Shown in pieces: positions 23,798-53,487 of a stretch of DNA of 64,000 bases; position 1 is the first letter of the stretch; each line of letters opens with the position of its first letter. The notes under the pieces are model-generated. The model was not told the origin of the DNA, did no database searches, and was given only the letters and a program-made list of their open reading frames with translations. Position numbers and translations under genes: made by a program. Source of the stretch: a virus; the IMG/VR virus record IMGVR_UViG_3300030085_004825, positions 1 to 64,000 of that record. The stretch is one strand, 5' to 3'.

Positions 23798-24247
23798 ATG
23801 AACTGGACATACAATAAAAAACAAATTGAGGATCTTTCTCATTTTCCTGAAAAAACCTTTGGATTTATTTATAAAATAACCCATACACCTACTAATAAAT
23901 CTTATATTGGTAAAAAAGTATTATTCCATAATCGCAAAGTTAAATTAACCAAAAAAGATTTAGCCTTATATGAGGGAATAGTAGGCCGTAAACCAGGTTA
24001 TAAAATAGCAACCAAAGAATCTGACTGGAAAACCTATTGGGGATCTAATAAACCTTTAAATGAACTCTTAAAATCAGAACCTAAAGAAAATTTTACTAAA
24101 GAAATATTAAAATTTGCCTCTACAAAAAAATTATTAACATATTATGAAACACAAGTTTTATTTGTTTATAGAGTTTTAGAAGAACCTGAAATGTATTATA
24201 ATGATAACATTTTAGGTAAATTTTTTAGAAAAGATTTTGAATTGTAA
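23798..24247 (+). CDS. GIY-YIG nuclease-like protein
   Basis: This 149-residue protein has a GIY-YIG core: FGFIYKITHTPTNKSYIGKK at residues 21-40, in which the GIY element is FIY and the second element is YIG. A WKTYWGSN stretch follows, and a probable catalytic glutamate lies in YYETQ (E117). GIY-YIG enzymes cut DNA, and in T4-like phages they include free-standing Seg homing endonucleases. This one may be mobile or a fixed nuclease. It sits between structural genes and primase. A small hairpin overlaps its stop codon. Confidence 0.8.
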   Translation: MNWTYNKKQIEDLSHFPEKTFGFIYKITHTPTNKSYIGKKVLFHNRKVKLTKKDLALYEGIVGRKPGYKIATKESDWKTYWGSNKPLNELLKSEPKENFTKEILKFASTKKLLTYYETQVLFVYRVLEEPEMYYNDNILGKFFRKDFEL

Positions 24248-25975: not shown

Positions 25976-27292
25976 ATGAGTAACATAAATGAAGCAGACC
26001 CTAAAAAAGGCACAGGTAAAAAACCTAAAGGATCAGGTAGACGTCTATACACAGATGAAGATCCATCTGATACAGTTAAAGTTAAATTTTCTACAAGACA
26101 AGATATAGTAGATACTTTAAATAAAAAATCTTTTAAAGCTAAATCTCATGCTCGCCAATCTCAGATTATTAATTTAATACATCAAAGAGTAAGAGCTGCT
26201 TTAAGTAGAACTAAAGATCCTAAAAAGAAAACTAAACTACGTTCTGCTTTTGAATACATTAAAAAACGTAAAGAAGCGTCTAAGAAAAAAACCCAACGTT
26301 TAAAAAAGGAAAATATTGACCCCAAGGCACAATCTAAACATAAAGGCAAAGCAGCACCATTTGGCTCAGCATATGAACCACTAAATGAAAATGCTACATA
26401 CTCTAATCATATAGATTATAAACAAGAAATTAAGGATTTAACAAAACATATGTTAAAAAAAGGTATGAATATCCAACCTTTACCTAAAGTAATATTTAAA
26501 CATAATGATAAAGAAAATGCTCAAGAATTTTTAGGTAGAACTGCTTATTATAATCCTAATAACATGACAATAGTTTTATATACTGAAGGTAGACATCCTA
26601 AAGATATAGCTAGATCATATGCACATGAAATGATTCATCATATTCAAAAATTAGAAGATAGATTAGAAAATATTTCTACTACTAATACTCTTGAAGATGA
26701 CCATTTAAATAATATAGAAAGAGAAGCATATACAAAAGGTAATATGGTTTTTAGAAACTATACAGATGGAAAAGATGGAGAAGAAGTTACTAGTTTAAAT
26801 GAAGGACCACAATTTGGAATATTATACCACTATACAGAATACTTATTAGATGTTTTAGATGATAATATGCTAAGGGGCCCAATAAGTTTAACACGTAGTA
26901 GAGATTCGTTTGTTAAAGATTGGATAGGGAGTGTACCTATTTTAGTATTAGATAAAGATAAATTACGTAATAATTATAAAATAAGACCCTATCAATCATA
27001 TGATGATGATGGTGGGTCCGAAGATGAAATGGAGGAGGTAATAGATAGAGATATTACAAATTTAAATAAATATATTATTAAAGTAATACTACCTAAACCA
27101 AATGAAGAATATGAAGATGCTTTAAAAGAAAAAGGTATACCTTATGAAATAGATAAACCATTAAACGAAAAGAAAAAACCATACAAACATAAACATGGTT
27201 TTGATAAAAATTTAGGTAAAGACCCTTTTGGTTTAAATCAATTTGCTAGAGAATTAGCTAGTTTAGAAGAAACCCCCCAAACCAAAAAATAA
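25976..27292 (+). CDS. multi-domain protein: basic domain, HExxH metalloprotease, possible ART-like domain
   Basis: This 438-residue protein has three parts. Residues 7-138 are very basic, with LYTDEDPSDTVKVKF, and could bind DNA. Residues 139-276 hold AHEMIHHIQ (H217, E218, H221) and a later NIEREAYTKGN, where E250 could be the third ligand of a zinc protease. Residues 277-398 have LYHYTEYLL, ISLTRS (303-308), VLDKDKLRNNYKI and DEMEEVI (350-356), an arrangement that resembles ADP-ribosyltransferase folds (H, ST, E). INE-A (6), LNE-N (138), LNE-G (276) and LNE-K (398) lie at or near the part borders and fit the (I/L)xE prohead-protease pattern. I infer a head-packaged protein cut into effectors. 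The protease motif is clear, the ART assignment tentative. Confidence 0.7.
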   Translation: MSNINEADPKKGTGKKPKGSGRRLYTDEDPSDTVKVKFSTRQDIVDTLNKKSFKAKSHARQSQIINLIHQRVRAALSRTKDPKKKTKLRSAFEYIKKRKEASKKKTQRLKKENIDPKAQSKHKGKAAPFGSAYEPLNENATYSNHIDYKQEIKDLTKHMLKKGMNIQPLPKVIFKHNDKENAQEFLGRTAYYNPNNMTIVLYTEGRHPKDIARSYAHEMIHHIQKLEDRLENISTTNTLEDDHLNNIEREAYTKGNMVFRNYTDGKDGEEVTSLNEGPQFGILYHYTEYLLDVLDDNMLRGPISLTRSRDSFVKDWIGSVPILVLDKDKLRNNYKIRPYQSYDDDGGSEDEMEEVIDRDITNLNKYIIKVILPKPNEEYEDALKEKGIPYEIDKPLNEKKKPYKHKHGFDKNLGKDPFGLNQFARELASLEETPQTKK

Positions 27293-28678: not shown

Positions 28679-31600
28679 ATGGATAAGTTTAATTTAAAAG
28701 AATATCTTTATAATAATCCACTTTATTCTACTTCTTCTCAAAATATAGAAGAAAAAAATTTAGTAGAAGCTTTAGCTCTTATAAAAGAATTAGGTTTAAA
28801 CGTTGATAATAAAATTCTAAATGAAGGTTTAAAAGATTTTGTAAGTAATGTTAAATCTAAACTAAAAGACTTAAAACCCACAGAACGTTTATTAGCTACT
28901 TTATTTGCTAAAATAAAAAAAGGTTTACCAAAAGAAGTTAACATAAAAAAATTCCTTACTAATTTAAATCAATGGGCTAAAGAAAATAAAGGGAAAATAA
29001 CAAATGAAACTCTTAAAGATTTTCTTTCTACCCAAGATAGTAAAGAACTAAACGAAATAATCCTCTCAGATACTGCTAGTAAAGTAGGTAGTTGGTTTTT
29101 ATTAACTCTAAAAACAACTGCTTTAGTTTTATCACTTCTTACTCCTGCCACAGCTCAATCTTCTATAGATGATTCTGAACAAGATATTAAAAAAATAGAA
29201 ATTTCAGCAGACGATTCAGGTGAATCTTTAGAAGGTGGAGATTCTATTAATAGTGAAGATGTAGCTAAAGAACTTAATGTCCAAGATAAAATCCAAGATC
29301 TTATATCCACAGACTCAGAATCTGACGCTGTTAAAATTTCTTTTGATACTGGAGAATTTAAAACTAATACTGATTCTTATGGTAATGATATATTTAAGAT
29401 GTTAGAAAATGATCTTAAGAATACTAAAAACATAGGAGAAGATGGAGAAGGATATAGCATTGATCTTGAACACTCTGGAAACATATCCAACACACCAGGA
29501 GCCCAAGATGATAACCCAGATGGTCCTGATAAAACAGGTTTAGGAGATAAAAGAAATCAAGCTGCTAAAGAAGGCGCTGAAAAAGGGGTTAAAGAATTTT
29601 TAAAAAAATACCCTAAAGCTAAAGTAAAAATTATTGATGGGGGAACAAATGTAAGTGATCCTGGAGAAGAAGTAGATTTTGATTCTTCTGAAGCTAAAGA
29701 TAAACAAACTTCAATTGTAAAAATAACTAATAAAGATATCCCTCAAGATCAAGATCAAGAATCTGATTCAAAACCTATAGCTTCCCCTGAAGATTTAACT
29801 GCTTTTTATGCTGATAAACCTGTATATAATGGTAGTAGATATATGTCTATTTTATTTCATATTTTACCTAGAATAACAGATAGAGAATCTTTTGAATCTG
29901 TTATTAAAACTATAGGAATAAAAAAAGGAGAAGTAATTAGTGATAGTTTTATAAAAAGAAAATTAGCTGAATTAGAAAAAAAGAAATCAGAAAAAGGAGC
30001 TAACCAAGAAGAAATAGATAATGCTATTAAAACTTTATATTGGACTCGATCTTCTAAAAAAGCTCCATCTACTCTTCTTAATCAATTAAAAAAATTAACA
30101 GATAAAGACCCTAAATTAAAGGATAAAATAGGAGATAGACAAAAATATATTCTCACTAAACCTGGAAAAGCAGGACAAGCTGCCGTTTTAAGAGGAACAG
30201 GAGAAAAAATAGGAGATAAACAAAAAGTTGGCCCACAAATAGGTACAACTAAAAAAGGAGACGATTTAATGGAAACAGTTTCTCTTTTATCTCTTTTATT
30301 AGAAGCTAAAAGTGATTTTGATTATTTACCTTTTTATAAAGAAGATATAGCCACCCAAAATTTAGGTTTTCTTATACCATTTTATGCTGGCATTTGGCCA
30401 GGTGAAGATGAAGATTATATAGCTAGTGCTTTAGATGTTTTTGCTGATAATAGTAAAGATAATTCTTATAAAAGCAGTTTTAGAGAATTTACTAAATTTC
30501 CTGCTTTAACTCAAATTATAAATGATAAATATAAAAAGTTTGATAAAGATCTTTCTAAAACTCAAGATAAAAAACAAGAACCATCTAAAGATGTTAAGAG
30601 AAAAACTATCCCTGCTTCTAAATTATATAATATTATACAAACTACAACCGATGGTAAAGTTACAGTTTACTGGGGAAAGAATAAAAAAGATGAAGATTGG
30701 ATAAATTTAAAAACTGTAAATAATAAAGATTTAAACCCTGAAAAAGATGTAGCTCAATTTATAGGGCCTAATACTAAAATTGATAAAAAATCTGTAACAC
30801 TTTATAGAGATTTTGATACTAAAGATACTCCTACACAAAAAGATGTAGTCGATATAGATAAAAAATTAGATTCTAAAAAGAATATTGATAAATCTTTTAA
30901 ATTTGTAAACAATAAAGAGGAATTAGAAGATTTATTAATATTATTATTATCTAAAGTTAGTGATGAAAATGATGTAGATTCAAAAACTATAAAAAATTAT
31001 CTTCTTCAAATTGTACAAAGATTAGATGCTAAAGGAGAACCTGAACCCTCATCTACATCAACCTCTGGTACTAAAATAACATATGATTACGTGAAAGAAG
31101 ATAATACTAAAGATGTTGAAAGAGTTAATAAAAATATATCTAACTTTACAGCCCTAAACCCAGCAACAGCTAAAATTAATACTAGAGAAGAAATAATCCA
31201 ATACATACTTAGAGTAATCCTCCCAGAATTAAATCCACAATTTTTAAAAAAATCAAGTGATATAAAACAAGCGATTAGGAATGCTTTAAAAAATTATCCT
31301 AGTAAAGAAAACTTAAATGAAGCGTTTACTCCTGAAGAGTCTAAAAAAATATATGATAACTTTTTATCTATAATTGCAACTCGAAGAAACAAATTAGTTA
31401 AAAATTATGGCCCTGAAGCTGAAAAAGTAGCATATGCTACAGCTGTTAAACAAATTAATAAAAAAGCAAAAGAAAAACCTATGGAAAAAGAAATTGAAGA
31501 AGGTACTTGTGGGTATGGTATAGATGGAGAAATTGGAGATACACCAGCTGGCCCAGATATGATGATTAAACTTAAAGAAATGGTTAAAGATGCTTTAAAA

Positions 31601-32038
31601 AAACCCGTATCTGAAAAGTTTACTTCAAAACATGATGATAAATTTGATGATAAACGTAAGAATTTACCTGATGGTTTACAAAAAGCTATCTTAAAAAAAC
31701 AAGGCAAATTAGATGAAGATTTAGACATAGGCCACCAAGACGATGAACCGGGTATGCTAAAAGCAGATTTATATCGTATTGGAAAATATGCTATGGAACT
31801 TTATAAAATGGTTGATAAGTTTGATAAAATGGATAGTGAAGTAGATTTCCCACATTGGTGGCAATCAAAAATATCCAAATCAAGAGGTATGTTAGTTGCT
31901 GCTAAACACTATCTTGATTTTGAAATGAAAGAACCTCAAATTGATGCAATGGTAGATGTTGCAAGTGAGGAAGGAGTAATTGATGAATCTAAGACTAAAA
32001 AACTAGCTGAAGCTATATTTAATAAACTTAGATCATGA
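28679..32038 (+). CDS. giant mosaic head-region protein, 1119 aa
   Basis: This 1119-residue protein begins DKFNLKEYLYNN, the leader type of its neighbours. LVE-A (30), LNE-G (49), LNE-I (126) and a later LNE-A (near 879) fit the (I/L)xE pattern. A hydrophobic segment at 137-158 ends in TPATAQSS, like a signal sequence. Residues about 215-350 look OmpA-like (SFDTGEFKTNTDSYGND, GLGDKRNQAAKEG). After that come lysine-rich helical regions. The end contains GHQDDEPGML and VDFPHWWQSKI, which I associate with a domain of many marine T4-like phages. It looks like several proteins joined in one frame. The function is unknown, and packaging with later cleavage is inferred. It overlaps the next gene by ATGA. 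Confidence 0.65.
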   Translation: MDKFNLKEYLYNNPLYSTSSQNIEEKNLVEALALIKELGLNVDNKILNEGLKDFVSNVKSKLKDLKPTERLLATLFAKIKKGLPKEVNIKKFLTNLNQWAKENKGKITNETLKDFLSTQDSKELNEIILSDTASKVGSWFLLTLKTTALVLSLLTPATAQSSIDDSEQDIKKIEISADDSGESLEGGDSINSEDVAKELNVQDKIQDLISTDSESDAVKISFDTGEFKTNTDSYGNDIFKMLENDLKNTKNIGEDGEGYSIDLEHSGNISNTPGAQDDNPDGPDKTGLGDKRNQAAKEGAEKGVKEFLKKYPKAKVKIIDGGTNVSDPGEEVDFDSSEAKDKQTSIVKITNKDIPQDQDQESDSKPIASPEDLTAFYADKPVYNGSRYMSILFHILPRITDRESFESVIKTIGIKKGEVISDSFIKRKLAELEKKKSEKGANQEEIDNAIKTLYWTRSSKKAPSTLLNQLKKLTDKDPKLKDKIGDRQKYILTKPGKAGQAAVLRGTGEKIGDKQKVGPQIGTTKKGDDLMETVSLLSLLLEAKSDFDYLPFYKEDIATQNLGFLIPFYAGIWPGEDEDYIASALDVFADNSKDNSYKSSFREFTKFPALTQIINDKYKKFDKDLSKTQDKKQEPSKDVKRKTIPASKLYNIIQTTTDGKVTVYWGKNKKDEDWINLKTVNNKDLNPEKDVAQFIGPNTKIDKKSVTLYRDFDTKDTPTQKDVVDIDKKLDSKKNIDKSFKFVNNKEELEDLLILLLSKVSDENDVDSKTIKNYLLQIVQRLDAKGEPEPSSTSTSGTKITYDYVKEDNTKDVERVNKNISNFTALNPATAKINTREEIIQYILRVILPELNPQFLKKSSDIKQAIRNALKNYPSKENLNEAFTPEESKKIYDNFLSIIATRRNKLVKNYGPEAEKVAYATAVKQINKKAKEKPMEKEIEEGTCGYGIDGEIGDTPAGPDMMIKLKEMVKDALKKPVSEKFTSKHDDKFDDKRKNLPDGLQKAILKKQGKLDEDLDIGHQDDEPGMLKADLYRIGKYAMELYKMVDKFDKMDSEVDFPHWWQSKISKSRGMLVAAKHYLDFEMKEPQIDAMVDVASEEGVIDESKTKKLAEAIFNKLRS

Positions 32039-35060: not shown

Positions 35061-35918
35061 ATGGAACGATTAACTAATCTTATAAAAGAAGTATTATCCA
35101 CCAAACCAAAAGAAAAAGAAGGTTGTAATTGTGGGTGTGGTGGCTGTGATAAACCAGCTTCTAAAGGTATAACTTTAAATGAAAGTATAGCCCCCAAACA
35201 AATACTATCAGAAAATCTTCAATATCACGTACAAAATAAACTACCTTTAACTGAAAACACATTCCGTTATGGTTCTGAATCGTTTATTAATTTATGGGCA
35301 GAAGCTCGTTCTTTATACTTACGTGAAATTATTAATGTAAATGAAGATGATAAAGAAATTTTAAAAGAAACTGATTTAGGCAATTATGGAATATATGAAA
35401 ATATTAAAGTGCCCTTAGATATGCCTCTTTCAGTTAGAGCCAATGAAGTTCCTTTAATGAATATTTTAAGAAGAGCTGAAGAAAAAGGTCAAGAAGGATA
35501 CCCATTTTATAGAGAATTAGCTGATGAATTAAGACAAGAATCTATAGATTTGAACCGAGTTAAAGAAGTTTTAAGGGATTATGGTGTGTATTATGAATAT
35601 GAAGATCTTTTAAACTTAAATGAAGCAGCTAAAAAGAAAAAGAAAAAAGACCCACCTATAGGAAAACCAAAACGTGGGGGTTCTAAAGCATATTATGTTT
35701 ATGTTAGAGACCCTAAAACTAAAAAAGTAAAAAAAGTTTCATTTGGTTCTGGTGGGTTAAAAGCAAAAATTAATAACCCCAAAGCTAGAAAAGCATTTGC
35801 AGCTAGACATAAATGTGCTCAAAAGAAAGATAAAACAAAAGCATCATATTGGTCTTGTAGATTGCCTCGCTATGCTAAATTATTAGGTTTAAAATCATCC
35901 TTTAGTGGATTTTGGTAA
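35061..35918 (+). CDS. multi-domain head-region protein with internal LNE sites, 285 aa
   Basis: This 285-residue protein has a leader helix (MERLTNLIKEVLSTK), a cysteine cluster at 22-29 (CNCGCGGC), a domain with FRYGSESFINLWAEARSLY (68-86), and a basic C-terminal domain with PKRGGSKAYYVYVRD and KAFAARHKCAQKKD. The last two blocks look like separate conserved marine phage modules. LNE-S (41), LTE-N (65) and LNE-A (188) lie exactly between these parts, so prohead-protease cutting would release them. The next gene has the same kind of leader. The functions of the modules are unknown to me. Confidence 0.7.
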   Translation: MERLTNLIKEVLSTKPKEKEGCNCGCGGCDKPASKGITLNESIAPKQILSENLQYHVQNKLPLTENTFRYGSESFINLWAEARSLYLREIINVNEDDKEILKETDLGNYGIYENIKVPLDMPLSVRANEVPLMNILRRAEEKGQEGYPFYRELADELRQESIDLNRVKEVLRDYGVYYEYEDLLNLNEAAKKKKKKDPPIGKPKRGGSKAYYVYVRDPKTKKVKKVSFGSGGLKAKINNPKARKAFAARHKCAQKKDKTKASYWSCRLPRYAKLLGLKSSFSGFW

Positions 35919-35919
35919 A

Positions 35920-36354
35920 ATGGATAGATTAGAAAAAATAATTAAAGAAGTTCTTACTGAAAAAAAGAAAAAACGAGATAGATGCTTACGCATTGCTGAC
36001 CGTAAATTTAAAAAACCTTCAGCTTACAAATCAGGAGCTGTAGTTAGATGTAGAAAAGGGTCTATTTGGAAAGGATTAAAAGAAGAACAAATACGTGAAG
36101 TAGTTAAAGAATCTTTACGTGATTGGTTTAAAAAAGAAAAATGGGTTCGTATTAACACATCAGGTAATATAACTGGTCCTTGTGGTACAATGAAAAAAGG
36201 TAAAGCTACAACTCGTTGTTTACCTAAAGCTAAAGCACAATCTTTAACTAAAGCTGAAAGAAAATCAACTGTAGCTAAAAAAGTTAGAGGAGGTAAAAAA
36301 GGTAAACAATTTGTAAAAAATACTAAAAAAGCTGAATATAAAAAGAAGTCTTGA
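35920..36354 (+). CDS. basic protein with leader helix, 144 aa
   Basis: This 144-residue, very basic protein starts MDRLEKIIKEVLTEK, closely matching the leader of the upstream gene; this favours the ATG at 35920 over an upstream GTG at 35905. It contains RCLRIADRKFKKPSAYKSG and then WVRINTSGNITGPCGTMKKG with RCLPKAKAQSLTKAERKS, a conserved basic module of marine phages. The positive charge suggests binding to packaged DNA. LTE-K (14) follows the leader. Confidence 0.75.
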   Translation: MDRLEKIIKEVLTEKKKKRDRCLRIADRKFKKPSAYKSGAVVRCRKGSIWKGLKEEQIREVVKESLRDWFKKEKWVRINTSGNITGPCGTMKKGKATTRCLPKAKAQSLTKAERKSTVAKKVRGGKKGKQFVKNTKKAEYKKKS

Positions 36355-40860: not shown

Positions 40861-41079
40861 ATGGCTAAACTAATAGATTTACTAAATGAATCTTTTTATG
40901 ATTCAAATAAATTATATTCTAAACAATATATACTTAATGTTACGGCAAATGCACCACGAAATATTAAGGATGTAGTAAGAAATTTAAAAATTATTGATTG
41001 TGTTGATTCAAACAATAATAAAAAAGAATGTGTAAAAATACCAGAAGTTTTGTATATTTACATTAGTGGTAAATATTAA
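40861..41079 (+). CDS. small hypothetical protein, 72 aa
   Basis: This 72-residue protein begins MAKLIDLLNESFYD, with LNE-S at residue 10, the same tripeptide that marks possible prohead-protease sites elsewhere. The remainder has two cysteines and no known domain. It lies between the FAD enzyme and the P-loop protein. The function is unknown. Confidence 0.65.
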   Translation: MAKLIDLLNESFYDSNKLYSKQYILNVTANAPRNIKDVVRNLKIIDCVDSNNNKKECVKIPEVLYIYISGKY

Positions 41080-48003: not shown

Positions 48004-49851
48004 ATGAAAAAGACATTACAAGACCAGTATTTGTTAATTAAAGAAGGTAAAGGCCACAAAGACGTCTTTATTAAGGAAGCTAAACGACAGTTTCCTGGTT
48101 TAATTCGTAACGCTGCTACATATACAGAAGTAGCAAATGTACTTAAAACTAAAAATCTTATTAATGAAAACGTTGTTGGTTTAGAACCAATTAACCAATT
48201 ACAACCTTCTAAAAAAGAATCATTTGAAGTTGCTTTTGAAAACTTTTTAGCTGAAGCAAAGAAAGAACATTTTGATGATGAAAAAGCTGAACTTAAAAAA
48301 CCTTCAAAACAAGTAGAAGAAGATGCTGAAAAGAATTTTGACTATGAGGATAAGAAAAATCCTGATAATTTAATTTTTGATCAGATTATGAAAGGATACT
48401 ACACTGAAATGAAAGATCCTAAAAATGAAAATAAAACAATGGAACAATTAAAAGCCATTGTAATTAAAAATCTTGAAAAAAATCCTATATATTACACTGA
48501 AAAAGGTCAATTCGGTGTAAAAGATTTAGGGTATGCAGTAGACCATCCTGGTTTAGGTGAACCAAAAGAACCTAAAGGAAAATACAAGTCAAGTGGATAC
48601 GGTGATTTAAAAGAGTCTATTCAACCAAAACTTAAAAAAGATGAAGCATCTAAATTATTTGATTACCATGAAAGAACAGGAATACTTCCCCAAGATATAA
48701 CTCCAGAAGAATATAATGAAATAATGTCATATTATGGTATTAAAAGAGATAATGAGGATTTTACTGACCCTTCAGGTGGGAGTGGTTTACATAGCCACTT
48801 AGAAGAAGCTAAATTGCGTAAAGTAATCCGTGAAATGGTTGATTCTGAATTAGAAGAAATGATCAACATCAACCCAGTAAGTGGTGGTGGTGGTAGACGA
48901 AAAATACCTACAAATTATCTTTTACCTGATTCAATTATTAGTAAACTTAATTTAAGTAACCCAGGCCCTAATGCCCCTACATATGATGAATCAGCACAAA
49001 TTCCCCACATTAAAGTATTTTCTAAAGGTGAAGAGGTAATTCTTGCTATATCTGATTTAATGTATATTGCTTTAAAAGGAGTAACAAGAGGTAGATCTAC
49101 AAGAGCTCAAAATGTTGCTAAAGCTACCTTACAAAAAATCCAAGATAATTTTACTGAAAAAGATTGGCCAGCAATTAGAGCATTAATCAAGAAATTTACT
49201 GATGACAGAATTTCAGAATTACCAGTTAAAGGACAAATGAGACCTTACCATATGGTATCCTTCCCTGAGGGGTATTCATTAAAAATAGTTGATGATGGTA
49301 TAATGATAGACTTACCCCCCTATAAACCAGATACTCTACCAGAAGCTAAAATACGAAAAGTAATTAAAGAAAATGTTAATAAAGAATTAGCTGAAATTAA
49401 TAAATTAGCTGAATATGAAGTGTATGAATCTAAATTAGCTAAAATTATGGAGTTAATTGAAAAGAAAAATTCATTTCTTGAAAGAATTAACGAAGATGAA
49501 GACATGAAAGCTTTAACTGATAAAAAGAAAGTTAAAGAACTTAAAAAAGATGTTAAAATTTTAGAAAGAGCTAAAGCTAAAATTGAAAAAGCACTTGCTA
49601 AAGAAGCTAAAAAAATTAAATCTATTCCTAAAAAAGAAGTAATTGATGAAGATGAACCACTTGAAGAATTTGATAATTCTACTGAACAAGCTAAAGAATT
49701 AGATCAAACAGTTGGAGAATTAAACCCAGAAATAGAAAAATTAAAAGATACTATTGATTCTCTTGAAGAAAACTATTCTGAACCATCTGATGAAGATGAA
49801 GACGTAGAGCCGGATTGGGAATGGTTAAATGATATAAGAAGAGGAAGATGA
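48004..49851 (+). CDS. large prohead-core-type protein, 615 aa
   Basis: This 615-residue protein opens with LQDQYLLIKEGKGHKDVFIK, which seems conserved in marine T4-like phages. It holds several possible cleavage sites: LAE-A (in ENFLAEAKKEH), LEE-A and LPE-A, the last two each followed by nearly the same helix (KLRKVIREMVDSELEE and KIRKVIKENVNKELAE). The C-terminal third is a long charged coiled coil with a very acidic end. The composition and position before gp21 suggest a core protein degraded or trimmed during head maturation. It overlaps the gp21 gene by ATGA. Confidence 0.7.
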   Translation: MKKTLQDQYLLIKEGKGHKDVFIKEAKRQFPGLIRNAATYTEVANVLKTKNLINENVVGLEPINQLQPSKKESFEVAFENFLAEAKKEHFDDEKAELKKPSKQVEEDAEKNFDYEDKKNPDNLIFDQIMKGYYTEMKDPKNENKTMEQLKAIVIKNLEKNPIYYTEKGQFGVKDLGYAVDHPGLGEPKEPKGKYKSSGYGDLKESIQPKLKKDEASKLFDYHERTGILPQDITPEEYNEIMSYYGIKRDNEDFTDPSGGSGLHSHLEEAKLRKVIREMVDSELEEMININPVSGGGGRRKIPTNYLLPDSIISKLNLSNPGPNAPTYDESAQIPHIKVFSKGEEVILAISDLMYIALKGVTRGRSTRAQNVAKATLQKIQDNFTEKDWPAIRALIKKFTDDRISELPVKGQMRPYHMVSFPEGYSLKIVDDGIMIDLPPYKPDTLPEAKIRKVIKENVNKELAEINKLAEYEVYESKLAKIMELIEKKNSFLERINEDEDMKALTDKKKVKELKKDVKILERAKAKIEKALAKEAKKIKSIPKKEVIDEDEPLEEFDNSTEQAKELDQTVGELNPEIEKLKDTIDSLEENYSEPSDEDEDVEPDWEWLNDIRRGR

Positions 49852-50480
49852 GTAAAGAACTCTTAATAGAAACTAGACAATTTAAACCAAGTCCTGTTCA
49901 ACTTGTAGAAGGGTTAAACAGAGGTGGAAACATTTTTGTTGAAGGTATCCTAGCTACTGTTGAAGTTAAAAACGGTAATGGTAGATACTATAAAAAAGAG
50001 TTATGGGAGCGTGAATTAGCAAACTTTCAAAAGAAAATAGATCAAAAATCAACTGAAACGTGTGGTGAATTAGATCATCCTGACTCTCAAATAATTAATT
50101 TAAAAAATGCATCGCATGCTATTAGAGAAATAAGATGGGATGGTGATGAAATTTTAGGTACTGTTGAAATATTTTGTGATCCCGGAGATAAAGGAACTGA
50201 ATCTGGCCGTATAGCAGGAGCATTAGTTAAAAATGGTTTAATTATAGGTATATCTTCTCGTGGAATGGGTTCACTAAAACAAATGGGTGAAGTAATGGAA
50301 GTACAAGATGACTTTGAATTACTTACTTGGGATTTAGTATCTAACCCATCAAACCCAGATTCTTGGATGAAAAATGGTCAATTAAATGAATCTAGATCTA
50401 CATTCCTTCATCCATATGCGCGCACTAATTCAATTATTACCGAAATATTATGCGCTAAGGGCACCTGTCCTGTAATGTAA
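49848..50480 (+). CDS. 21: prohead core protease (gp21)
   Basis: This 210-residue protease has the expected motifs: FVEGILATVEVKNGNGRYYK, CGELDHPDS with catalytic H77, and LIIGISSRGMGSL with the catalytic serine at 136 or 137, plus VSNPSNPDSW. It is a herpesvirus-protease-like serine peptidase that cuts scaffold, core and capsid proteins at (I/L)xE-(A/G). The protein itself carries QLNE-S at 181, a possible autocleavage site. It is followed by a structured gap and the scaffold gene. Confidence 0.92.
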   Translation: MSKELLIETRQFKPSPVQLVEGLNRGGNIFVEGILATVEVKNGNGRYYKKELWERELANFQKKIDQKSTETCGELDHPDSQIINLKNASHAIREIRWDGDEILGTVEIFCDPGDKGTESGRIAGALVKNGLIIGISSRGMGSLKQMGEVMEVQDDFELLTWDLVSNPSNPDSWMKNGQLNESRSTFLHPYARTNSIITEILCAKGTCPVM

Positions 50481-50608: not shown

Positions 50609-51778
50609 ATGGCAACAAACAGAGATTTGCTTAAAGAAGCAATCGCAGATGCTAAAGCTGTAAAAGAAATGGCAATAGCAAACGCTAAAGAAGCTTTAGA
50701 AGAAGCCTTTACACCTCGTTTAAAAGAAATGTTATCTGCTAAAATCCAAGAAATGGAATATGAAGAAGATGATGTTAAAGAAATGAAATCTTACGATGAA
50801 GATGATTCTAAAATGGAAGAAGCTATGCATGACGAAGATGATTCTAAAGATAGTATGGAAGAAATGAAATACGAAGAAGATGATTCTAAAAATAGCATGG
50901 AAGAAGACATAGACGAGATGAATTTGGAAGAACTATTAGCTGAATTAGAAGAAGAAGAAAAAGTGGAAGAAGGAAAAAAATCCGACGACGAAGAAAAAGT
51001 AGAAGAAGGAAAAAAATCCGACGACGAAGAAAAAGAAGATGTTAAAGAAGCTATGGATGAAGAAGATGATGACATGGCTGGTGATGACATGGATGAAGAA
51101 GGAGAACCACTTGATCTTGAGGACATGACTGATGAAGACCTTAAAAAGATGATTGAAGACGTAATCGCTGACATGATTGAATCAGGGGAACTTGAAGCAG
51201 GTGAAGGCGCTGAGGAAGAATCAGAAGAAGAAGGTGAAGAAATGGAAATGTCTGATGAAGAAGAAGTTGATTTAACAGAATTATTGAAAGAAATTGAAGC
51301 AGAAGAAATTTCTGAAAGGAAAAAAAGTAGTGCTAAAAAAGATGCTACTAAAAAAGATGCTGCTGAAGAAGAAGTTGAAGACACTAAGAAAAAGCTTAAA
51401 GAAGCTGAACTTAAAATTGAATCTTTAGAAAATAAACTTCAAGAAAAGGATCTTCAATTAAATGAAGCTGTTAAAGAAACAAATACATCTAACTTGTTAA
51501 ATGCAAAACTTCTTTATTCAAATAAAATTTTCAAGTCTAAAAACTTGAATGAAAGTCAAAAAGTGAAAGTATTAAGTTCGTTTGATAAAGCAAATACCGT
51601 TAAGGAAGCTAAATTAGTGTACGAAACTTTAAGCGAAGGTTTAAAAGTTAAAAAGAACACTATTAAAGAAAACTTAGGTAGAGCTTCTAAAACAACAACA
51701 ATACCAACAACTAAAAAACCAATTGTTGAATCTAACGAAGTATTCGCTAGAATGCAAAAATTGGCAGGTATTAAATAA
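50609..51778 (+). CDS. 22: prohead scaffold protein (gp22)
   Basis: This 389-residue protein is extremely acidic and helical, with many Glu/Asp runs, a coiled coil (about 255-290) and a conserved C-terminus FARMQKLAGIK. These features and the position between protease and capsid gene fit T4 gp22. It has many (L/V)KE-A and LEE-A sites (LKE-A at 10, LEE-A at 32), as expected for a protein degraded by gp21. Two copies of a 12-residue repeat (KVEEGKKSDDEE) lie near residue 118. Some lengthening relative to T4 gp22 (269) is due to the acidic region. Confidence 0.88.
   Translation: MATNRDLLKEAIADAKAVKEMAIANAKEALEEAFTPRLKEMLSAKIQEMEYEEDDVKEMKSYDEDDSKMEEAMHDEDDSKDSMEEMKYEEDDSKNSMEEDIDEMNLEELLAELEEEEKVEEGKKSDDEEKVEEGKKSDDEEKEDVKEAMDEEDDDMAGDDMDEEGEPLDLEDMTDEDLKKMIEDVIADMIESGELEAGEGAEEESEEEGEEMEMSDEEEVDLTELLKEIEAEEISERKKSSAKKDATKKDAAEEEVEDTKKKLKEAELKIESLENKLQEKDLQLNEAVKETNTSNLLNAKLLYSNKIFKSKNLNESQKVKVLSSFDKANTVKEAKLVYETLSEGLKVKKNTIKENLGRASKTTTIPTTKKPIVESNEVFARMQKLAGIK
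50954..51025 (+). repeat. 36-base tandem duplication in the scaffold gene
   Basis: Two 36-base units (50954-50989 and 50990-51025) differ in one base. Their near identity indicates recent duplication. Confidence 0.9.
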
Positions 51779-51807: not shown

Positions 51808-53487
51808 ATGTCAACAATTAATTCATTACTCGAAAACTCTGCAAATAGTTATAAAAACTTGCAGAGCGATGCTGCTAAAATGGCATCAAAATGGGGTAAA
51901 ACCGGATTGTTAGAAGGTCTCGGAGGCGAGATTGAAAAAAACAATATGGCGATGATCCTCGAAAACCAAGCTAAACAGCTTGTAACTGAAGCTTCTGCTA
52001 CTAACCAAGGTGGCGGTACCTTTTCAGTAGGACAAGGTGAACAATGGGCTGGTGTAGCACTTCCATTGGTAAGAAAAGTATTTGGATCTTTATCTACTAA
52101 AGAATTCATGTCTGTTCAACCAATGAACCTACCTTCAGGTCTTGTATTTTTCCTTGATTTCCAATATGGACAACAAAAAGAACTAGACTTCGGTCCTGCA
52201 GGAGATGTTTATACTGCTGGTTCTTCAATGTATGGTAATACTGACCCAGGTGCTAATGCTGACCCATCAGGTGGTCTTTATGGTGCTGGTAGATTTGCTT
52301 ATTCAATTAACCAAAGATCAGCTTCATTAGACGGTACTATTTCTTCAGCTACTTGGGCACAAGTTGATTATGATTCTGCTAAATCTGCTTCTATAGCAGC
52401 AGGAGTTACATATTCAGCGGTTGCTATTGATATGTCAACGTTAACTGGATCTGGTGCTACAAACCCAGATTTTAAAGGAGCTAGAGCATTTACTGCTACT
52501 TCAGCTTCTATTGCTACAACTTCAAATATCTTACCACAATATACTTCTGTTAATGCAGCTACTGGTACTGTAACATTTATTTATGAACAATCTTCAGCTT
52601 CATTTGCTGATTTAGATGAGCCATTCTATGTTACTTATAACCTACAACCAACTGATAACAACAGAGGTGATTTTGAAGATACTACTGGAGGTGGATTCCC
52701 TAATGCTGAATCAACAACTGCTGATCAATTAGCAATCCCTCAAATTGATATCAAAATGAAATCTGAAGCTATTGTTGCTAAAACACGTAAGTTAAAAGCA
52801 CAATGGACACCAGAATTTGCTCAAGATTTGAACGCTTACCAATCTTTGGATGCTGAAGCGGAATTAACTTCAATCATGAGTGAATATATTGCATTAGAAA
52901 TTGATTTGGAAAACTTGGATATGTTGATTCAAGATGCATCTGCTGCTGATGAGTATTGGTATGCACAAAACAATAGAGTTCTAAATGCTAACAGTGATGG
53001 ATATGATAATCCTGGATTCTTTAATACACAAGGACAATGGTTCCAAACTTTAGGAACTAAAATGCAGAAAGTATCTAACAAGATTCACCAAAAGACCCTT
53101 AGAGGTGGTGCTAACTGGTTAGTATGTTCTCCATCAGTTGCTACAGTCCTAGAATCAATTCCTGGATTTGCTTCAACATCTGATGGTGATGCTGCAAAAG
53201 CGTCTTATGCATTTGGTATCCAAAAAGCAGGTAACTTGAATAACCGTTATACGGTTTACAAGAACCCATACATGACTGAAAATGTAATCCTAATGGGTTA
53301 TAGAGGTTCTCAATTCTTGGAAACAGGAGCAGTATTTGCACCATATGTTCCATTAATTATGACTCCTCTAGTATACGATCCAGATACATTTACACCACGT
53401 AAAGGTCTCTTGACTCGTTACGCGAAGAAGATGATTCGACCTGAATTCTTCGGACGTATCTTTGTAAATGATTTACATCAACTATAA
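51808..53487 (+). CDS. 23: major capsid protein (gp23)
   Basis: This 559-residue protein has a propeptide and the T4 gp23 body. QAKQLVTE-A (61/62) is the predicted gp21 cleavage site, close to E65/A66 in T4. Then come ALPLVRKVFGSLSTKEFMSV, QPMNLPSGLVFFLDFQYG, the FAQDLNAYQSLDAEAELTSI stretch and the C-terminal PYVPLIMTPLVYDPDTFTP with GLLTRYAKKMIRPEFFGRI. It forms the head shell. Codons here are more G/C-rich at some positions than in neighbours, as expected for a highly expressed gene. A terminator follows. Confidence 0.95.
   Translation: MSTINSLLENSANSYKNLQSDAAKMASKWGKTGLLEGLGGEIEKNNMAMILENQAKQLVTEASATNQGGGTFSVGQGEQWAGVALPLVRKVFGSLSTKEFMSVQPMNLPSGLVFFLDFQYGQQKELDFGPAGDVYTAGSSMYGNTDPGANADPSGGLYGAGRFAYSINQRSASLDGTISSATWAQVDYDSAKSASIAAGVTYSAVAIDMSTLTGSGATNPDFKGARAFTATSASIATTSNILPQYTSVNAATGTVTFIYEQSSASFADLDEPFYVTYNLQPTDNNRGDFEDTTGGGFPNAESTTADQLAIPQIDIKMKSEAIVAKTRKLKAQWTPEFAQDLNAYQSLDAEAELTSIMSEYIALEIDLENLDMLIQDASAADEYWYAQNNRVLNANSDGYDNPGFFNTQGQWFQTLGTKMQKVSNKIHQKTLRGGANWLVCSPSVATVLESIPGFASTSDGDAAKASYAFGIQKAGNLNNRYTVYKNPYMTENVILMGYRGSQFLETGAVFAPYVPLIMTPLVYDPDTFTPRKGLLTRYAKKMIRPEFFGRIFVNDLHQL

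Follow-up and report, generated by a model that had tools for sequence, protein, structure and literature searches.

Putative head-packaged cargo polyprotein of a marine T4-like phage, with exchangeable modules joined at gp21-type sites

Described packaged and injected proteins, and the phage locus

In T4, a short leader ending in an L/I-X-E site suffices for entry into the head. The T4 prohead protease gp21 cleaves by the rule L/I-X-E; the internal proteins have propeptides of 10-19 residues with a capsid-targeting function, and 7 residues are removed from Alt and 65 from gp23 (PMC9026906). The protein described here resembles T4 IPI-III (PMC9026906) in having a short N-terminal leader that ends in L/I-X-E and a gp21-type protease, and, by inference, in the small, variable, host-facing accessory nature of the proteins concerned, but IPI-III are encoded by separate genes, each with its own propeptide cut, whereas the present type is a tandem fusion with a site at every junction. 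It would also resemble T4 Alt, an ADP-ribosyltransferase (ART) that is packaged in the head and trimmed by gp21, but its own putative ART has no sequence match to the Alt family, is nearest to Tpt1 and DarT, measures about 120 aa, and is only one of several modules. In the head ejection proteins of SPN3US and phiKZ (PMC10052503), cleavage by a gp21-like protease follows a short motif with E as its last residue, and some propeptides have multiple sites; there, however, cleavage removes propeptides that mostly leave the head, and release of several enzymes from one chain is not described.

Polyvalent proteins (Iyer et al., 2017, PMC5512222) combine several enzymatic or DNA-binding modules, including zincin and ART domains, in one mosaic polypeptide that is predicted to be injected, and the present protein meets the definition of several such domains in one phage polypeptide. 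The difference lies in release, which is attributed there to embedded metallopeptidases, whereas the joints described here fit gp21 and exist without a zincin. No PolyVal family was found among the Pfam matches of the 438-aa protein (up to E 1) or of the ART module family, with the Pfam profiles rather than those of the paper. Leaders cut by gp21 in T4, as well as polyvalent proteins, are already known; no description of tandem modules joined or shuffled at prohead-protease sites was found in the full-text open-access literature, and this combination appears to be new.

The DNA analysed, termed the window, comprises the first 64,000 bases of a viral record of 122,391 bases. Its order of genes, with primase, exonuclease, the cargo gene, terminase, gp20 portal, gp21 protease, scaffold and gp23, is that of Flavobacterium phage immuto (NC_055915), and the source is a marine T4-like (Immutovirus-related) phage. 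We propose, with a probability of about 0.7, that the cargo gene encodes a head-packaged polyprotein, which gp21 cleaves to give separate proteins that are probably injected, and that the shuffling of modules takes place at these cleavage sites, which serve as their joints. The features of the window that bear on this proposal are collected in Table 1.

Table 1. Parts of the putative cargo polyprotein and head genes of the window
Feature	Position	Strand	Basis or remark
Putative cargo polyprotein ORF	25976-27292	+	438 aa, ATG start, reading frame open
Leader MSNINE, closing with gp21-type site E6/A7	25976..25993	+	syntenic L014 has MSNLNE
Basic module, residues 7-111	25994..26308	+	net charge +24; many different left neighbours in relatives
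Spacer ENIDPK...EPLNE, residues 112-138, terminal site E138/N139	26309..26389	+	recurs as its own block with differing neighbours on both sides
Predicted zincin-type metalloprotease module, residues 139-276, terminal site E276/G277	26390..26803	+	invariant residues, AF2, Foldseek, dN/dS
Predicted ADP-ribosyltransferase-fold module, residues 277-398, terminal site E398/K399	26804..27169	+	invariant residues, AF2, Foldseek
Basic C-terminal tail module, residues 399-438	27170..27289	+	neighbour comparison in relatives
gp21-type prohead protease, likely processing enzyme	49848..50480	+	PHROG 207 head maturation protease, E 2.4e-48
Scaffold/core protein	50609..51778	+	position (place of immuto gp67, just before gp23), composition; [LI]xE 18 versus 4.3 expected
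Major capsid protein gp23	51808..53487	+	PHROG 138, E 1.4e-68

In the scaffold and neighbouring core ORFs, LxE occurs three to four times above expectation. As judged from its sequence, gp23 is likely to be cleaved at VTE61/A62, and immuto has VSE/A at the equal place.

Outside the head genes, a SegE-type GIY-YIG endonuclease (PF19835, 2.2e-28) is encoded at 23798-24247. The best PHROG for it is labelled 'NAD synthetase', a label also borne by the similarly placed immuto KNV73_gp100, and which looks wrong.

Modules of the polyprotein and their exchange

An earlier note, made from the window sequence alone, had described a three-part protein with [L/I]NE sites at or near its borders. The sites are there, as INE at residues 4-6 and LNE at residues 136-138, 274-276 and 396-398, four triplets where 0.35 would be expected from window composition, and the first region is basic, as that note had claimed. 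Three parts proved too few, since a 6-residue leader, a basic module followed by a 27-residue spacer, a zincin, an ART and a basic tail can be distinguished. A fifth joint is probable at LEE432/T433, to judge from relatives in which different modules come after LEE. The basic module had no match in a Pfam search, and nothing usable was returned for the whole 438-aa protein by PHROG, NCBIfam or PADLOC, or for the protein and its module profiles by sequence searches of the PDB. Two Pfam matches of the 438-aa protein, PipA (E 0.043) and Fib_alpha (E 0.94), failed the cut-off and were not used.

Scanning viral contigs with the whole protein yielded 27 loci, and second and third scans with the ART module alone yielded 12 and 80. 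Related loci number ∼90, and the longest of their polyproteins reach about 1,380 aa; apart from the immuto records, all of these relatives are uncultured. In the ORFs of the 27 whole-protein loci, many of them 500 to 1,364 aa long, the blocks of the window protein were reordered and other blocks were interposed. Window blocks 4-112/138, 135-276, 274-392/398 and 395-432 had separate matches in different relatives, with ends on xNE sites, and alignments repeatedly stopped at 138, 276 or 398, or started at 4, 135, 274 or 395. When neighbours were tabulated, every window module had many different ones on each side, and the joint was nearly always xNE or LxE; in other proteins, for example, the basic module was preceded by LNE, INE, VNE or LHE.

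Counted over all pairs, 76 of 247 alignment ends fell within 3 aa of [LIVT]NE, compared with 9.6 expected. After strict deduplication to dissimilar contexts, ends at [LIVT]NE numbered 53 of 391 (12.5 expected, sd 3.4) and starts 31 of 380 (10.3 expected, sd 3.2), so that homology broke at these joints three to four times more often than by chance. For the broader [LIVMT]xE, the counts were 123/391 ends (51.7 expected, sd 6.8) and 98/380 starts (42.9 expected). Most deduplicated breakpoints lay away from sites, a class that includes alignment noise and recombination inside modules, and some junctions, namely the left border of the spacer and breakpoints internal to the basic module, lack LxE.

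One exchange could be read directly from the sequences. Locus L014 has the gene order, flanks and short leader of the window, but the ART is missing, and ...SLNE/KEKPYK stands where the window has ...SLNE/ART...PLNE/KKKPYK. These comparisons show that the parts of the window protein are exchangeable modules within polyproteins.

Predicted folds of the zincin and ADP-ribosyltransferase modules

The earlier note's metalloprotease motif was retained in part. HEMIHH lies at residues 217-222 and is conserved, but the third ligand proposed, E250, was not supported; E248, within IEREA (247-251), is the invariant residue instead. H217, E218, H221 and E248 were identical in 18 of 18 aligned zincin sequences. 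Folded from an alignment of related-locus sequences only, with the immuto sequence left out, the module gave an AF2 model (pLDDT 81, pTM 0.79) in which a helix, three strands, the HExxH helix and the Glu helix follow in order, and Foldseek matched it to CapP, selecase, IrrE/PprI and a DPC-repair protease (E 0.013-0.17). With HExxH, a downstream Glu ligand and a minimal zincin fold, the gluzincin definition is met, and residues 139-276 are, on residue and model evidence, a minimal zincin. Its core layout is the one described for the metallopeptidases of polyvalent proteins (PMC5512222). The site-bearing ends of the model have pLDDT < 50 and are therefore probably flexible.

The motifs that the earlier note had read by eye as an ART triad were located in the order stated, YHYT at 284-287, SLTR (part of its ISLTR) at 304-307 and DEMEEVI at 350-356, and the structure prediction it had called for bears it out. 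Residues 277-394, modelled from 12 sequences, gave pLDDT 86.6 and pTM 0.81, and the ten best Foldseek matches in the PDB all belong to the ART superfamily (2 Tpt1 and 8 DarT, E 0.0035 to 0.45, probability 0.57-1.00), with noise below them. In a search of viral models, 15 phage proteins matched at E < 1e-3, with names uninformative for fold. The fold and the conserved residues of H-[ST]-E type satisfy the definition of the superfamily, and residues 277-398 are predicted to adopt an ADP-ribosyltransferase fold, from which NAD-dependent transfer is inferred. The matches are modest for both modules, with best E-values of 0.0035 for the ART and 0.013 for the zincin.

It is possible, although unlikely, that the third module merely resembles an ART, being inactive or using NAD for other chemistry as in Tpt1; such an outcome would be independent of packaging. 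The best Foldseek E-value of only 3.5e-3, and Tpt1 as the best single match, leave room for it. Against it, H285, T306-R307 and E353-E354 are invariant in all 12 homologues (without residue-level superposition), DarT is among the top Foldseek matches, the Tox-ART-HYD1 profile matched 3 of 12 relatives (best 8.7e-4), and the module, like the zincin, is under purifying selection (dN/dS 0.12-0.16 for the two). Nucleic acids are the targets of DarT and Tpt1, and RNA polymerase is that of T4 Alt. No PHROG or Pfam match to Alt was found for the 438-aa protein or for members of the ART module family, and tblastn of the ART module against annotated phage records found no record that encodes it. Matches in phage isolates were confined to immuto (zincin and nucleotidyltransferase) and to two Pelagibacter phages, in which the basic module matched weakly and over part of its length.

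Joint consensus, proposed processing and relatives

At the joint that precedes the ART module, 67 of 69 distinct proteins have Glu as the last residue (P1). Over a set of 68, P1 was E in 67, P3 was L or I in 61 and P1' was G or A in 63, with other upstream positions variable. As far as aligned sequences can tell, this consensus is the gp21 rule of T4. At least 30 different DNA 9-mers encode P3-P1 at this joint, and selection therefore acts on the protein; given this diversity, a recombination sequence at the DNA level is not supported as an explanation of the joint. Two properties expected of a gp21 substrate are present, L/I-X-E at the joints and a gp21 gene in the window and in 10 of 10 module-carrying relatives of at least 150 kb (PHROG 207; among shorter fragments, 1 of 6).

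The same site closes the leaders of freestanding copies. Freestanding ART genes begin with MIKLIDLLNE/[AG]KQVG or MKKSQLKQIIKEEIRKVLSE/G, resembling capsid-targeting leaders, and polyproteins whose N-terminal module is a nucleotidyltransferase also have a clear leader. In the window protein the leader consists of MSNINE alone; it is short and not helix-like as in the freestanding copies, and the window protein may therefore be targeted by some other means. Genome-wide, [LI]xE was present in 38 of 131 N-terminal 16-mers compared with 20% internally; with so mild an enrichment, it is the module families that carry the leader argument. Taken with module exchange at the sites and the gp21-type consensus, these leaders lend strong comparative support to the earlier note's use of LNE as a marker of processing borders.

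Several other ORFs of the window have similar features. The 72-aa ORF at 40861-41079 starts with MAKLIDLLNE/S, nearly the leader of the freestanding ART, and is likely to be a small packaged protein. Adjacent ORFs at 35061-35918 and 35920-36354 have leaders MERLTNLIKE and MDRLEKIIKEVLTE and several LxE sites; the former ends in a basic module, and the latter has a relative in L072, where an ART module separates two blocks and is joined to them at LEE and LNE; by eye, it also resembles immuto gp84. The 1119-aa ORF at 28679-32038, whose LNE triplets end at residues 49, 126 and 881, is a candidate second cargo polyprotein, and had no significant Pfam or PHROG match.

It seems distinctly improbable that the protein is a polyvalent one, injected uncut, with release inside the host by the zincin that it contains. 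Zincins are the commonest polyvalent-protein domain and are proposed processors (PMC5512222), and the core layout of the window zincin is equal. However, among the 43 polyproteins with 400 aa or more, HExxH is absent from 16, and 15 of those 16 (some of them contig-end fragments) keep xNE joints, so that the embedded zincin is not needed for joints and is not supported as what defines them; in addition, joints are present in freestanding single-module genes without a zincin, and the site equals the gp21 rule. Still less can be said for a multidomain protein that is active in the producing cell and never packaged, with LNE as no more than a preferred linker or place of recombination. Virion proteomics was found neither for the window phage nor for Immutovirus, the gene has primase and exonuclease genes as its neighbours and not those of the head, and phage recombination at recurrent linkers is common, all of which would suit it; yet joint DNA is diverse while P3, P1 and P1' are constrained, the leaders of freestanding copies end in the identical site, and the consensus equals that of the head protease. 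An action of the freed zincin and ART on phage assembly or head contents, instead of the host, is very unlikely. Both would sit in the prohead, and T4 IPIII also affects head assembly (PMC9026906); against this, close relatives can do without the modules or swap them (L014), as fits accessory cargo directed at the host better than a core assembly role.

For the head-packaged cargo polyprotein, the evidence from sequences and predicted folds is strong, and its packaging, cleavage, injection and enzymatic targets are inferred. The basic module, the minimal zincin, the small Tpt1/DarT-type ART and the basic tail would be independent proteins joined by gp21-type sites. The precursor would enter the prohead core, where gp21 would cut after each [L/I]xE and free the pieces inside the head, and these would leave with the DNA and act on the incoming host. 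By inference, the basic parts, module and tail, would serve to hold DNA, the zincin would have a host or phage regulator as its substrate, and the target of modification by the ART would be a protein or nucleic acid of the host. Because every joint would be a cleavage site, modules could be inserted, lost or exchanged without disturbing their neighbours, and this would account for the different module sets that related phages have at one locus.

A broader reading, which we consider rather probable, is an effector-delivery polyprotein in which the head-maturation protease doubles as processing enzyme, the cleavage site is a universal joint, and a module pool is shuffled among marine T4-like phages, with conversion between freestanding and embedded forms included. 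The pool would comprise ART, several zincins, cupredoxin, DUF192, nucleotidyltransferase, deoxyribonucleotidase and basic modules. The leader rule of T4 has apparently been turned into a cassette format, in which any site-bounded module could be packaged and released. If this is true, the site becomes a search key in metagenomes for injected phage effectors, including counter-defence or takeover proteins without a recognisable sequence family; large 'NadR/nucleotidyltransferase' annotations in such phages are explained as chains of separate proteins; and the format is a natural counterpart to engineered T4 protein-packaging systems. Which of these proteins reach the host becomes a testable question.

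Among the blocks identified in relatives are a nucleotidyltransferase at the N-terminus (L021, CTP_transf_like, 1.7e-4; L017, a cytidyltransferase PHROG), DUF192 (L021, 8.2e-23), an IrrE-like zincin (L010, 0.0018), a deoxyribonucleotidase (L017, 1e-22), a weak match to the T4 endoribonuclease RegB at about residues 420-484 of the L017 polyprotein (E 0.0052) and, by eye, basic and zinc-ribbon-like blocks. The nucleotidyltransferase module was not found in the rest of the 122 kb record, which may be incomplete. At the equal place in immuto, the counterpart is a 907-aa protein annotated NadR. The nucleotidyltransferase annotated NadR, the ART and the nucleotidase of relatives give hints of nucleotide/NAD metabolism at the start of infection, which remains an inference.

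KNV73_gp088 of immuto (L029, 18288-21011), annotated NMN adenylyltransferase NadR, is itself multi-module, with two HExxH modules and LxE joints. A C-terminal module GGAAGHMAHPFNL...VKIDGVNSSIRL...HEGVVIRD in L021, L022, L024, L025 and L040/L070 looks like a nucleic-acid ligase by eye, without profile confirmation. In L010 and L014, a plastocyanin-type cupredoxin (PF00127, 2.2e-17 and 7e-16, respectively) stands as a single module flanked by xNE/LxE joints, and would be an unexpected cargo for a phage head.
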